Assembly (NCBI GenBank): GCA_945876755.1
Contig: CAMCPM010000002.1
Location: 176,254-240,253, forward strand
Source: an uncultured Clostridia bacterium
GTDB taxonomy: Bacteria; Bacillota; Clostridia; Oscillospirales; Ruminococcaceae
Reading direction: 5' to 3'
Length of the DNA: 64,000 bases
The translations under genes were made by a program, and so were the position numbers. The stretch's first letter is position 1. The number at the start of each line of letters is the position of its first letter. The notes below the pieces were generated by a model. That model made no database searches. It saw only the letters and a list, made by a program, of their open reading frames with translations, and had not been told where the DNA came from. Shown here piece after piece: positions 1,154 to 64,000 of this stretch.

Positions 1154-2905
1154 TTATCCGTAATAAGCTGTAATTGTAATATCACTTGTTATGTTTTCAA
1201 GGCTCTTGTCCCAGCCAAGGAACTTATTTCCGTTGCTGTCGGTAATAGGCCAGTATGGAGGTGCGGCAGTTTCGCCGTCCTTTACCTTGACTGAGTAGAA
1301 CTGACCGTCAATTATAAATGTTACCGTGTGGTAGTTACTGTCGGCAAAAACAGCGGTAATGGTCGTATCCATAATAATATTGTCAAGCTGTCTGTCCCAG
1401 CCTACAAATCTGTTTCCGTCATTGTCGACAGATGGTATATACGGTGGAATAACAGAGCCGCCGTGATCGGCTTCAACAGTAAATGTATCACTGCCGATAA
1501 CAAATGTAACTGTATGTACGGCGCGTTCAAGAATAGCCGTAATTGTAATATCGGAAGTAATATTTGTATATTCTTTGTCCCAGCCTTTGAAAATATAACC
1601 CTCGATATTGAGCGTTGTGGGCAGATCGGCAGATTTGCCGTGTTCAACAAGTATAGTGTTAGACTTGTTTCCGATAACAACTGTAACCGTATGCATCAGT
1701 GTTTCGTTTGTTGTTGTCTCGTCGGAAATAATTTCGCTGAACATTGCTTTGATAATTCTGTCCTCGGTAACATTTTCAAACGAACCGTCCCAGCCGATAA
1801 ATGTCAGACCTTCAATATCGGGGTCTGCCGGCTTTTCGGCATTCTGCCCGTGAAGAACCTCCTGAATAGTTTCTTCACTGTCAATAATAATGGTAACGGT
1901 ATGATAGGTATTGTTTGAAGCAGTAACAGTTGTAGTAGATTCGGTTGTGGTTGCGGGAGGAGCTGTGGTAACCACCGGAGCTGCGGTAGTCGTGTGACCG
2001 GGAAGTGTTGTTTCGGTCGGAGGAGGTGCGGTAGTTACAACAGGTTCGGCTGTCTGTATCATATCGGAATTATCAATTCCGTCGGAAGCTGTTGTTTCTG
2101 TCGGTTCTGTGACCTGCTCATCAACGGAAATACCGTCGCTGTCATCTGATTTGGTATCATAAACGGCTTTCAGTTCAGCTGCGGTGTAAGGGAAATCCTC
2201 GCCGATAATTGCGGCAATTGTGAGCAGAGTTTTCAAGTCAAATGCAGTAAGCTCGTTCAGGTCGATATCAAGGTTTAGTGCTTCAAATGAAGGACCGTCC
2301 TCAGAAACTACGCGTCCCCATTTTTTCTGTATCTGCAATTCGGCATTGTTTACCGGATTTCCGAGCGCATCGTAAAGCTGTATCTCACTGCTGCCCATAA
2401 ACGTGTATAAATCTGTATATGACATAAATTCATTGGTTGAATATGAGATCTTTGAAACGCTTTCAGCGGTAGTTATCAGCGAATCTGCTGTTCGGAGCTT
2501 AATTGAAGAGTGATCCTTATCCGCAAAATTTGCAATAACCGAACCGTTCCTTAGGAAAATCTCACCGTCGCTTTTGCCGTTGAATTCGCTCGATATCACA
2601 AGCTGAGTGTTTGCGTCGGCAACAAGATAATTCTTTTCGGAATTTTTCTTTCCCTTATAAGCAAGCGTACATGAGGATTTTTCTCCGATTGTGATGACAT
2701 CGCCGTTTTTAAGAATGTCTCCGCTTACGGGGGCGGTCACGTTATCCGAATTTGTAACGCTTACGCTTCCGTAAACCGAAGTTATGTACAGTCCGTAATC
2801 GGAAGAAAAACCTCCCGTAACGACAATTAATGTAGCAATAATTGCAATAACGGCGCAGCCTCCCAGAATAATGGGTACTTTAAAATTTCTTAAAAAATCT
2901 TTCAT
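1154..2905 (-). CDS. Membrane-anchored FecR-like protein with four InlB-type B-repeats
   Basis: About 583 residues. A short cytoplasmic start and one membrane helix (about residues 10-32) are followed by a FecR-like beta domain exposed outside the cell (about 37-145; features such as LKNGDVITIGE and GSVIANF). A Thr/Pro/Glu-rich linker (about 265-335) leads to four tandem Listeria-Bacteroides/InlB B-repeats, each opening with HTVT and carrying a GWD core, up to the C-terminus. B-repeats usually act as rigid stalks or adhesive modules; no LPXTG signal is present, so the N-terminal helix is the anchor. The ORF-track start at 3016 would overlap the upstream gene by 74 bp. The ATG at 2905 gives a normal N-terminus, but its AGGAG lies about 26 nt upstream with a 7-bp hairpin between; an in-frame TTG at 2914 is an alternative. 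It is paralogous to and co-oriented with the next gene. Its binding partner is unknown. Confidence 0.75.
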   Translation of the reverse strand: MKDFLRNFKVPIILGGCAVIAIIATLIVVTGGFSSDYGLYITSVYGSVSVTNSDNVTAPVSGDILKNGDVITIGEKSSCTLAYKGKKNSEKNYLVADANTQLVISSEFNGKSDGEIFLRNGSVIANFADKDHSSIKLRTADSLITTAESVSKISYSTNEFMSYTDLYTFMGSSEIQLYDALGNPVNNAELQIQKKWGRVVSEDGPSFEALNLDIDLNELTAFDLKTLLTIAAIIGEDFPYTAAELKAVYDTKSDDSDGISVDEQVTEPTETTASDGIDNSDMIQTAEPVVTTAPPPTETTLPGHTTTAAPVVTTAPPATTTESTTTVTASNNTYHTVTIIIDSEETIQEVLHGQNAEKPADPDIEGLTFIGWDGSFENVTEDRIIKAMFSEIISDETTTNETLMHTVTVVIGNKSNTILVEHGKSADLPTTLNIEGYIFKGWDKEYTNITSDITITAILERAVHTVTFVIGSDTFTVEADHGGSVIPPYIPSVDNDGNRFVGWDRQLDNIIMDTTITAVFADSNYHTVTFIIDGQFYSVKVKDGETAAPPYWPITDSNGNKFLGWDKSLENITSDITITAYYG

Positions 2906-5761: not shown

Positions 5762-7240
5762 TTAAAGTATAAAGCAGATAAGTCCGCCGCAGCCCTCGTT
5801 GATAATGCGCTCCAGCGTTTCCTGCAATTTTAGGCGGGCGTCAACAGGCATACGGTAAAGCTTGTTGTGCAGTCCTTCGTTTACAAGCTCGTGCAGGGAT
5901 TTTCCGAAAATGTTTGATTCCCAGATTTTCTGGGGACTTTCCTCAAACTCTTTCAGCAGGTACATGACAAGCTCCTCGGATTGCTTTTCCGAACCGACAA
6001 TAGGACTTACCTCGGTCACGATATCTGCCTTCATCATATGGATAGACGGAGCAGACGCTTTCAGGCGGACTCCGTATTTTCCGCCCTGCTTCACGATCTC
6101 AGGCTCTTCGAGAGAAAGCTCGTCGATAGTAGGCATTACAATGCCGTAGCCTGTCGCTTCGACTTCGGAAAGAGCATTTTCGATTTTTTCATACTTTTTC
6201 TTAACAGCAGTCAAATCTTTAAGCAGCGGCATAAGGTCGCTTTCGCCGTTTATCTCTATTCCTGTTTCCTCGCCAAGTATTTTAAAGAAAAGATTGCTTT
6301 GCAGGTCAACGCATATTTCGGCGCTGCCTTTTCCAAGATCTATGCCGGAAATCAATGCACGGCTTATGTTTTCGCAGTCTGAAATACTGTCCGCAACACC
6401 GTCTATGTCACGGACGTACCTGACGTTTTCCGCAGCTGCACGGATACTGTCAAAAACGTTGCTTTTAAGCCAGTGTCCCTTTGCAAGACCTGTTATCCAC
6501 TTTGGCATACAGATATTGATCTCCTTAACGGGAAATGCGTAAAGTACCTGCTTTAATATACTGTTAATGCTTTCCTCGTCAAGATCAACGCAGTTTACGG
6601 GAATTACGGGCGTTTTATATTTTTCCGAAAGTTCAGAAGCAAGCCTTTTTGCCTCCGCCGAGTCGGGATAAACACAGTTAAGAAGCACCACAAACGGCTT
6701 GTTTATGGAATTGAGTTCGTTTATCACACGCTGTTCGGCTTCTTCGTATTCTTCTCTCGGGATATCGGAAATGCTGCCGTCGGTAGTTATCACCAGTCCT
6801 ATCGTGGAATGGTCCTGAATGACCTTTCGTGTTCCGACTTCTGCTGCCATAGCAAACGGTATCTCCTCCTCAAACCAAGGAGTAATTACCATTCTCGGAG
6901 CCTCGTTTTCGATATATCCTATTGCGCTTGGTACGATATATCCCACGCAGTCTATCATTCTTACATTGAAGCGAGCCTTGTCGCCGATGGTTACTTCAAC
7001 CGCTTCTTCGGGAATAAATTTCGGCTCGGTAGTCATAATGGTTTTTCCCGCTGCCGACTGTGGAAGCTCGTCAACGGCACGCTCACGCCTGTAATCGCTT
7101 GAAATATTCGGGATAACAAGCTGTTCCATAAATTTTTTGATAAAGGTTGACTTTCCCGTGCGGACGGGTCCCACAACACCGATATAAATATCGCCGTCGG
7201 TACGTTTCGCTATATCGCAGTAAATATCATTGTTTGTCAT
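5762..7240 (-). CDS. spoIVA: Stage IV sporulation protein A, spore coat morphogenetic ATPase
   Basis: A 492-residue SpoIVA of the usual length. The N-terminal TRAFAC-type ATPase domain shows Walker A (GVVGPVRTGKSTF), the conserved DELPQSAAGKTIMTTEPKF segment and DCVGY. The C-terminal segment that contacts the forespore membrane is conserved (ETLERIINEGCGGLI). In Bacillus and Clostridioides, SpoIVA is made in the mother cell, polymerises with ATP hydrolysis on the outer forespore membrane and forms the platform for coat assembly. Directly upstream (25-bp gap) is a SipL-like gene whose product is its known partner in clostridia. Expression is expected to depend on sigma E, but no clear sigma E box was identified. 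Confidence 0.97.
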   Translation of the reverse strand: MTNNDIYCDIAKRTDGDIYIGVVGPVRTGKSTFIKKFMEQLVIPNISSDYRRERAVDELPQSAAGKTIMTTEPKFIPEEAVEVTIGDKARFNVRMIDCVGYIVPSAIGYIENEAPRMVITPWFEEEIPFAMAAEVGTRKVIQDHSTIGLVITTDGSISDIPREEYEEAEQRVINELNSINKPFVVLLNCVYPDSAEAKRLASELSEKYKTPVIPVNCVDLDEESINSILKQVLYAFPVKEINICMPKWITGLAKGHWLKSNVFDSIRAAAENVRYVRDIDGVADSISDCENISRALISGIDLGKGSAEICVDLQSNLFFKILGEETGIEINGESDLMPLLKDLTAVKKKYEKIENALSEVEATGYGIVMPTIDELSLEEPEIVKQGGKYGVRLKASAPSIHMMKADIVTEVSPIVGSEKQSEELVMYLLKEFEESPQKIWESNIFGKSLHELVNEGLHNKLYRMPVDARLKLQETLERIINEGCGGLICFIL

Positions 7241-11616: not shown

Positions 11617-12921
11617 ATGGGTCTTATTAAAGCTGCGATTGGTGCTGTAGGCGGCGTTCTTGCCGACCAGTGGAAAGAATTTTTCTATTGCGAGGCTATG
11701 GACAGCGATGTGCTTGTTCAGAAAGGTCAGAAGAAAATCAACGGACGTTCCTCGAATACAAAGGGAAGCGACAACGTTATCACACAGGGTTCGGGTATTG
11801 CTGTTGCAGACGGTCAGTGTATGATAATCGTTGAGCAGGGCAAGATCATTGATGTCTGCGCCGAGCCGGGCGAGTATACCTTTAATATTTCGGGAGAACC
11901 CTCCATATTTGCCGGCGATCTGGGTACAAGCATCAAGGAGACTTTTGAAAGCATCGGAAACCGTTTTGCTCACGGCGGCCAGGCTTCAACCGATACCCGT
12001 GTTTACTATTTCAATACAAAGGAAATACTTGGAAATAAATACGGTACCCCTACTCCCGTTCCGTTCCGCGTTGTGGACAGAAATATCGGACTTGATATTG
12101 ACGTTTCTATCCGCTGCAACGGTGAGTATTCCTATAAAATCGTTGACCCTTTGCTTTTCTATACAAACGTGTGCGGAAACGTAAACGGCGTTTATCGCAG
12201 AAGCGAAATAGACAGTATGCTTAAAACCGAGCTTATGACTGCGCTTCAGCCTGCATTTGCAAAAATTTCCGATATGGGAATAAGATACAGCGCACTTCCG
12301 GGTCATACTATTGAAATTGCCGACGCTCTCAATGAAGTTCTTTCAAAGAAGTGGACTGAGCTTCGCGGCATAAAAATTGCTTCATTCGGAATAAATTCCG
12401 TAAGCTGCTCGCCTGAGGACGAGAAAATGATCAAGGAGCTTCAGCGTACCGCTGTAATGCGTGACCCGTCAATGGCTGCTGCAACAATGGTAGGCGCTCA
12501 GGGCGATGCAATGAAAGCTGCTGCAAAAAACAGCGCAGGTGCAATGACAGGTTTTATGGGTATGGGTATGGCTCAGCAGGCAGGAGGACTTAACGCTCAG
12601 GCTCTTTTCGGAATGGCAGCTCAGCAATCACAGCAGCAGGCTGCTCCTGCGGCAAACGGCTGGAAATGCTCCTGCGGTGCTGTTAATACGGCAAAATTCT
12701 GCTCCGAGTGCGGAAGTCCAAAACCATCAGCCGATGGCTGGACCTGCTCCTGCGGTGCGGTAAACAAGGGTAAATTCTGCGCTGAATGCGGAAAACCCAA
12801 GCCGGCGGGAGAACCTCTTTACCGCTGCGACAAGTGCGGCTGGGAACCTGAAGATCCGAAAAATCCTCCAAAGTTCTGTCCCGAATGCGGAGACCGCTTT
12901 GACGAAAATGATATAAAGTAA
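11617..12921 (+). CDS. SPFH-domain protein with three C-terminal zinc ribbons (YdjI-like)
   Basis: About 434 residues. The N-terminus (MGLIKAAIGAVGGVLADQWKE) and the following SPFH-like domain (to about 290) match the 'virion core protein/YdjI' branch of the SPFH family. The C-terminus carries zinc ribbons built on CSCGAVN..CSECG, CSCGAVN..CAECG and CDKCGW..CPECG. In B. subtilis, YdjI belongs to the pspA-ydjG-ydjH-ydjI envelope-stress locus and is recruited to the membrane by its partners. The next two genes here look like ydjG and ydjH counterparts, so the three probably form one membrane-associated complex. The start follows AAAGGAG; the ORF-track TTG at 11608 is not needed. Confidence 0.82.
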   Translation: MGLIKAAIGAVGGVLADQWKEFFYCEAMDSDVLVQKGQKKINGRSSNTKGSDNVITQGSGIAVADGQCMIIVEQGKIIDVCAEPGEYTFNISGEPSIFAGDLGTSIKETFESIGNRFAHGGQASTDTRVYYFNTKEILGNKYGTPTPVPFRVVDRNIGLDIDVSIRCNGEYSYKIVDPLLFYTNVCGNVNGVYRRSEIDSMLKTELMTALQPAFAKISDMGIRYSALPGHTIEIADALNEVLSKKWTELRGIKIASFGINSVSCSPEDEKMIKELQRTAVMRDPSMAAATMVGAQGDAMKAAAKNSAGAMTGFMGMGMAQQAGGLNAQALFGMAAQQSQQQAAPAANGWKCSCGAVNTAKFCSECGSPKPSADGWTCSCGAVNKGKFCAECGKPKPAGEPLYRCDKCGWEPEDPKNPPKFCPECGDRFDENDIK

Positions 12922-63380: not shown

Positions 63381-63590
63381 ATGTATAACAATGCAAATTT
63401 ACTGAATAACAATAACGGAAATGAGTTAAGTGCATTTCCTGCCGAAACTCCGATTGGAATGTGCTATGTACCGTTTCAGCAGTGGGAGATACCATATGCG
63501 GAAAACATTGCTCTTGAACGCGGTACAATTTTTCCGAGTCTTGACCTGCCATTCTTAGGAAAGGAGATTTCAGACAATGAACGGAAATAA
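63381..63590 (+). CDS. cotJA: Spore coat-associated protein CotJA
   Basis: A 69-residue CotJA-like protein. After an Asn-rich start, the diagnostic GMCYVPFQQWEIPYAEN and ALERGTIFPSLDLPF segments are present. CotJA is a small inner-coat component made in the mother cell. The ATG at 63381 follows AAAGGAG; the track start at 63315 is too early. It overlaps cotJB by 14 bp. Confidence 0.9.
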   Translation: MYNNANLLNNNNGNELSAFPAETPIGMCYVPFQQWEIPYAENIALERGTIFPSLDLPFLGKEISDNERK

Positions 63591-63828
63591 TCTTATGCGT
63601 GCTATACAGATGTATGATTTTTATTTAGATGAACTTAATCTTTATCTGGATACGCACCCCAACGACCGTCAGGCATTGGCTATGTTTAAAAAGTACAACG
63701 AACTCAGGACAGCTGCATATGAAGCATATGTAAAAAAATACGGTCCTGTAACCGTTGACCAGTCATCAACTGATTCTCATTTTAATTGGGTGGACAGTCC
63801 GTGGCCTTGGGAAAGGAGCGCTAATTAA
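63577..63828 (+). CDS. cotJB: Spore coat protein CotJB
   Basis: An 83-residue CotJB. MRAIQMYDFYLDELNLYLDTHP, the central YNELRTAAYEAYVKKYGP and the terminal FNWVDSPWPWE are characteristic. AAGGAG precedes the ATG inside cotJA, and its TAA shares one base with the ATG of cotJC, so the three genes are translationally coupled. Confidence 0.92.
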   Translation: MNGNNLMRAIQMYDFYLDELNLYLDTHPNDRQALAMFKKYNELRTAAYEAYVKKYGPVTVDQSSTDSHFNWVDSPWPWERSAN

Positions 63829-63974
63829 TGTGGCAATATGAGAAAAAATTACAATACCCGATCAATATCAAAAACAGCAATCCTAAGCTTGCACAGGCTA
63901 TAATTAGCCAGCTTGGCGGTGCAGGTTCCTTAAAGATACGATATATAAAAACTCGCCCTGCAGGAGAGGTTTAA
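63828..63974 (+). pseudogene. cotJC: cotJC 5' end, truncated after about 32 codons
   Basis: The first 32 codons (MWQYEKKLQYPINIKN to ISQLGGAG) match the start of CotJC, a manganese-catalase-like coat protein usually of about 190 residues. After GGAG the expected DGELAASLRYL-type continuation is replaced by SLKIRYIKTRPAGEV and a stop at 63972, and no other frame restores CotJC before the window ends. AAAGGAG precedes the start. Either a frameshift or deletion has destroyed the gene or, more likely, an insertion begins near 63925 and the rest lies beyond it. Confidence 0.65.
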
Positions 63975-64000
63975 ACCAATCCCACAGGGCAAATTTTTGT
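63925..64000. other. Probable boundary of an inserted element within cotJC
   Basis: Sequence unrelated to cotJC. It contains an inverted repeat GCCCTG (63955-63960)/CAGGGC (63985-63990) with T-runs outside and a 10-bp palindrome GGTTTAAACC (63968-63977) inside, which would work as a terminator for a gene arriving on the minus strand. A minus-strand frame is open from the window edge to a TAA at 63930-63932. This fits the end of a mobile element; its type cannot be read from 75 bases. Confidence 0.4.

Follow-up and report, generated by a model that had tools for sequence, protein, structure and literature searches.

In the genome that contains the 64,000-nucleotide stretch of DNA analysed here (the window), the spore-coat catalase gene cotJC is cut in three by two foreign elements, element A at codon 31 and element B at codon 66. 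Among related bacteria cotJC is a recurrent target of such insertions, at several sites and in dozens of species. The reading that we favor, with a probability of roughly 0.77, is that these insertions are sporulation-timed intervening elements, for which cotJC would serve as the attB site and which would be excised in the mother cell with the aid of an excision factor (RDF). The observations behind it are the gene pieces and their att cores, the large serine recombinases (LSRs) beside them, the in-frame restoration of the gene in silico, its recurrent interruption, the selection acting on it, and an enrichment of sporulation-type promoters.

The three pieces of cotJC in the window genome

As a previous sequence-only reading of the window had stated, cotJA (63381..63590, forward strand) and cotJB (63577..63828, forward strand) are intact and overlapping, and cotJC starts normally at 63828, its start being overlapped by the end of cotJB (TAATG). 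The cotJC sequence agrees with intact orthologs up to 63919 (...ISQLGG) and diverges from 63920; the break recognized in that reading is therefore real, but lies about 5 bases before the change point of approximately 63925 that was given for it. The 5' piece, codons 1-31 (63828..63919, forward strand), is followed by the left end of element A (63920..64000, forward strand). The sequence ends 81 bases beyond the break because the end of the window is also the end of contig C2. The last ~59 bases of C2 (63942..64000, forward strand) are a repeat that recurs at the end of contig C1 and at the start of contig C35, where a phage lysis module is located. Such a contig-end repeat, common to C2, C1, and C35, is a typical short-read assembler leftover at an unresolved repeat, and it accounts for the lack of anything recognizable past the break in the sequence-only reading. 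The terminator-like inverted repeat noted there is indeed present (63955-63998). At the C1 end (L010 5057-5307), the repeat adjoins a tRNA-Lys gene, and this copy suggests a second related prophage in the window genome.

A search of the whole window genome (G000) with the Mn-catalase family located the remainder of the gene outside the window, as had been anticipated. The middle piece, P2 (codons ~31-66), is on contig C10 (84772-84900, reverse strand), and the 3' piece, P3 (codons ~67-198), is on C1 (92845-93288, forward strand). Simple deletion or loss of cotJC, which the earlier reading had named as grounds for dismissing an intervening element, is thus ruled out, and the same whole-genome search found no intact cotJC copy, the other such ground. 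P2 lies within a gap of ~150 bases between two different LSR genes, inside the 88-kb contig C10, and both recombinases have Resolvase, Recombinase, and Zn-ribbon domains. Element A is probably a prophage, with a 482-aa LSR (LSR-A) and an S24-type repressor on C10; element B has an LSR of up to 566 aa (LSR-B) beside a cytosine-methyltransferase-like gene and other mobile genes. The ends of element A are found on separate contigs (C2 and C10) that the assembly does not connect through its middle, and the S24 repressor adjoins LSR-A, while the lysis genes on C35 are without a physical link to C2 or C10 in the assembly. When read by eye, the stretch beside LSR-B (L009 1-3245, G000:C10:79000-82245) contains the cytosine-methyltransferase-like gene together with caspase-like and TIR-like proteins, and may represent a defence island.

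Recombinases of the kind sought beyond the window are accordingly present, and they are LSRs, like those of skin and SPβ. The expected repeated core was also found: CAGCTTGGCGG, in the DNA for the GGxxGE ligand motif (site 1; 63909..63919, forward strand), is repeated exactly at the other junction of element A on C10, whereas the GGTGCAGG suggested earlier overlaps this core at its edge only. The junctions of element A also carry inverted arms, TTAAAGATAC at 63930-63939 and GTATCTTTAA at the C10 junction, and those of element B have the common core TGCACA. The proposal of an intervening element in cotJC is therefore supported, but where a single element was expected, two occupy separate sites. 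None of the three pieces contains a stop, and when they are joined in silico at the att cores, the product is a CotJC of 198 aa without gaps, with 87-90% identity to six intact copies from the genus.

The closeness of the break to the contig end and the repeat in the last 59 bases might be taken to mean that the pieces are products of contig breaks or chimeras. We consider this explanation extremely improbable, as P2 is inside an 88-kb contig with a cotJC-type LSR on either side, and identical break sites occur on long contigs in other genomes. Furthermore, SpoIVA, an intact sporulation gene used as a control, whose ATPase domain (6530..7240, reverse strand) is on the same contig as the cotJC 5' piece, was found in 19 of the 21 genus genomes, including the window genome, and is split in none. 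The contig end was thus rejected as a full explanation of the break.

The window genome shows a rearrangement at the second junction. On C1 the genes upstream of P3 (DUF2935 and PGM) are chromosomal, which prevents P2 and P3 from being joined by simple excision, and on C10 the far side of element B leads into guaA. It is therefore quite conceivable, though less likely than not, that cotJC is dead in this particular genome, element B having been broken by a chromosomal rearrangement that left P2 and P3 unjoinable, and that the elements work elsewhere. The different gene order in the sister genome G005 and the same kind of separation in G019, in which the two cotJC halves belong to different contigs and the 3' piece has chromosomal genes as neighbors, would agree with this. 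However, the three pieces have remained without stops, they yield a normal protein when joined, each att half is conserved, and the contigs are draft. Since the att halves are conserved, a rearrangement by an LSR or at a later time is likely. Relatives were searched for the ancestral order of genes around P3 (DUF2935, guaA), but genes within the genus are too strongly shuffled for it to be recovered. Owing to the rearrangement, simple excision may fail to restore cotJC in the window genome.

Separated halves are found in other genomes as well. They are 675 kb apart on the single contig of G131 (L138/L139, G131:C1), and in G142 (L134, G142:C1) the 5' and 3' pieces are permuted, with a sigK-like gene closely after the 5' piece. 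In G105 (L137, G105:C83), the halves at 2313-2852 (forward strand) and 12673-12768 (reverse strand) are separated by 10 kb, and one of their junctions has an LSR; from this arrangement cotJC would be restored by inversion and not by excision. That some genomes rejoin the halves in the mother cell, whose chromosome is disposable, through an inversion or through recombination of att sites that are far apart, is a speculative idea to which we give little credence.

Recurrent interruption of cotJC in relatives

Within the genus, a cotJC match was obtained in 16 of 21 genomes, and the gene is interrupted in at least 10 of the 16. At the family level, 179 of 249 genomes gave a match and cotJC is split in about 50 of them, a lower bound, as genomes with an intact Mn-catalase paralog were outside the re-examined set. 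Of the 58 family genomes that were re-examined, about 50 contain at least two complementary cotJC pieces, as judged by us from the match table. An open joined frame resulted from 49 of 56 junction pairs. Two genomes, G220 and G129, have three cotJC interruptions each, and in one locus (L156 3259-3519, G204:C13) a second partial cotJC 3' end is located beside the first.

The breaks always occur at the same five places, namely codons ~8, ~31-33, ~65-68, ~137, and ~188. On the basis of an alignment to the L. plantarum Mn catalase 1jku, four of these five sites fall on DNA for manganese-ligand motifs: Glu35 (GGxxGE), Glu66/His69 (GTEExxH), Glu148 (AAE), and His181 (RExxxH). The roles of these residues as metal ligands in Mn catalase are well established. 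The elements thus interrupt the coding region of a gene specific to sporulation, with an LSR beside the att junction; in 118 cases an LSR is within 400 bp of the cotJC break. At 40% identity the break-adjacent LSRs form six clusters, each largely confined to one site, although some site 0 assignments are alignment overruns. Of the 68 relatives closest to LSR-A in a set of public genomes, 63 share their locus with a cotJC piece, almost always at site 1; the LSR-A relatives in cotJC come from Oscillospiraceae and Lachnospiraceae, including named isolates. Cuneatibacter caecimuris DSM 29486 and Lachnoclostridium sp. An196 are examples of isolates whose cotJC contains an intact element. Approximately 16 of 67 IMG/VR contigs with LSR-B relatives carry a cotJC piece, which starts at codon 61-64.

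The elements range in size from ~1.2 kb to ~38 kb. At the lower end, the ~1.2-kb site 1 elements of L229 and L230 have little beyond one recombinase ORF of 258-263 aa (the usual length is 480 aa) and may be decayed or minimal, and the ~2.0-kb element of G185 has little besides an LSR. Others contain cargo: the potassium-uptake genes trkA-trkH are inside the cotJC element in L199, L201, L204, L207, L208, L209, and L227, and in several of these loci a second LSR, located at site 3, adjoins a threonine aldolase gene.

These data bear on an alternative explanation, according to which cotJC is no more than a conserved but dispensable landing site, the DNA of the ligand motifs being conserved and the loss of the gene being tolerated without any programmed restoration. 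Many of the cotJC elements are ordinary prophages, and some full prophages may merely use a tolerated site. For other targets, diverse LSRs are known to converge on a single conserved gene (PMC10083194), and the loss of a spore-coat catalase can be mild (PMC11222575). Elements with little beyond an LSR do not fit this explanation well, nor do the strong purifying selection on cotJC pieces in lineages with a common old element and the strong enrichment of σE-type promoters at the candidate RDF genes, both described below. We therefore consider a mere landing site unlikely, and sporulation-timed excision the better account.

Selection on the split gene and candidate excision factors

As genus-wide dS values are saturated, the selection test was confined to a closer group of Lachnospiraceae, in which seven loci have one common site 1 element with the arrangement P1-trkA-trkH-LSR-P2. 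In the closer loci, dS is similar for cotJB, the host gene (0.14-0.72), and the LSR (0.19-0.55), which is what would be expected under vertical inheritance. The ω values of the cotJC pieces in the Lachnospiraceae loci are mostly 0-0.15 and reach 0.24 in a few short comparisons, the alignments being short and recombination possible. Judging from these values, cotJC is under purifying selection while it is interrupted; a gene constrained while split would therefore need a means of restoration.

A possible means is provided by a family of proteins of 60-85 residues that is present in at least 21 site 1 elements, usually adjoining the cotJC junction or the LSR. The family is without a Pfam match, and its sole match is phrog_26314, a phage family without assigned function; the position, size, and promoter of these small genes suggest that they encode RDFs. 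With start codons chosen by hand from the alignment, a CATAnnnT box, the -10 form of σE and σK promoters, is found 20-50 nt before the start codon in 15 of the 21 candidate RDF genes, compared to 8 of 122 other genes from the same loci (Fisher p 2.4e-10). The box is accompanied by an ATA-type -35 box in 10/21 candidates and 1/122 control genes, and precedes the LSR genes in only three of 20 cases. Several of the promoters have the form ATAGGACAA-N12-CATAnnnT, in which the part overlapping the -35 region resembles a SpoIIID box. The composite occurs in 10/27 versus 0/192, but its p-value is optimistic because the composite was defined after viewing the sequences. In the window genome, element B has an 84-residue gene, divergent from LSR-B, with ATATAGG-15-CATATATT 25 nt from its start; for element A, no RDF-family homolog stood out above noise. 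In skin of C. difficile, σA directs expression of the LSR, and σE and SpoIIID control the RDF gene, CD1234 (PMC5025042), a pattern that the promoters of the cotJC elements appear to match.

The selection on interrupted genes and the σE-type promoters of candidate excision-factor genes thus lend weight to the developmental control that the sequence-only reading had proposed, while the rearranged second junction speaks against it in the window genome itself. Under the sporulation-timed reading, cotJC would be the attB site of LSR-carrying integrative elements, which would keep the gene in pieces in vegetative cells. During sporulation σE, probably together with SpoIIID, would turn on the small RDF gene of the element in the mother cell. 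The RDF would then switch the resident LSR to excision and the element would leave as a circle, so that cotJC is restored for spore-coat assembly, whereas the forespore would retain the element. The identity of the RDFs, the timing, the excision, and the function of the system in the window genome are all parts of this model that we infer.

Relation to known sporulation elements

Elements in sporulation genes have been reported in sigK, spsM, spoVFB, gerE, and yabG (PMC10747680). The literature that we searched, which covered few subscription papers, does not describe cotJC as a target of integration, and a survey of LSR targets highlighted other genes, with catalase absent from its main text (PMC10083194). 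The C. difficile phage phi027 adjoins a CotJC-like Mn catalase gene, CDR20291_1465 (PMC11222575). By analogy, the cotJC elements would work like skin and SPβ, in a host gene for which this literature contains no such report. Similar to skin in sigK of C. difficile (LSR CD1231, RDF CD1234), they are LSR elements inside a mother-cell gene, with precise in-frame restoration (in cotJC predicted from sequence) and a small, in this case candidate, RDF gene with a σE and possibly SpoIIID promoter, the LSR gene not being sporulation-specific. In contrast to skin, the host gene encodes a structural coat catalase, and there are five sites, several LSR families, and up to three elements at once. SPβ (spsM) and vfbin (spoVFB) of Bacillus are prophages in late sporulation genes that are rebuilt by site-specific excision, to which the cotJC elements can be likened from their sequences. 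However, those prophages use a single site in one gene in few species, whereas cotJC harbors prophages, metabolic-cargo elements, and near LSR-only elements in two families. The latter (~1.2-2.6 kb) are comparable to gin, a non-prophage element in gerE of B. cereus, but differ from it in gene and taxa and belong to a size series from ~1.2 kb to ~38 kb. The yin element in yabG of C. botulinum also has an LSR, a putative RDF with a sporulation sigma-factor promoter, and a coat-related host gene, but it has been reported in one strain only, while the cotJC elements are widespread.

Because of this pattern, annotation pipelines can be expected to call cotJC truncated or missing quite often in genomes of this kind. 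The location of the sites on DNA for catalytic metal ligands offers a possible explanation of how recombinases from different families arrive at a durable target, and the candidate RDFs and the LSR families with clear site preference may be of practical use. Whereas the known programmed rearrangements of sporulation are single elements, cotJC commonly houses such elements, at several sites, in both uncultured and cultured gut Clostridia and, as named isolates carry cotJC elements, the phenomenon can be tested in existing strains.
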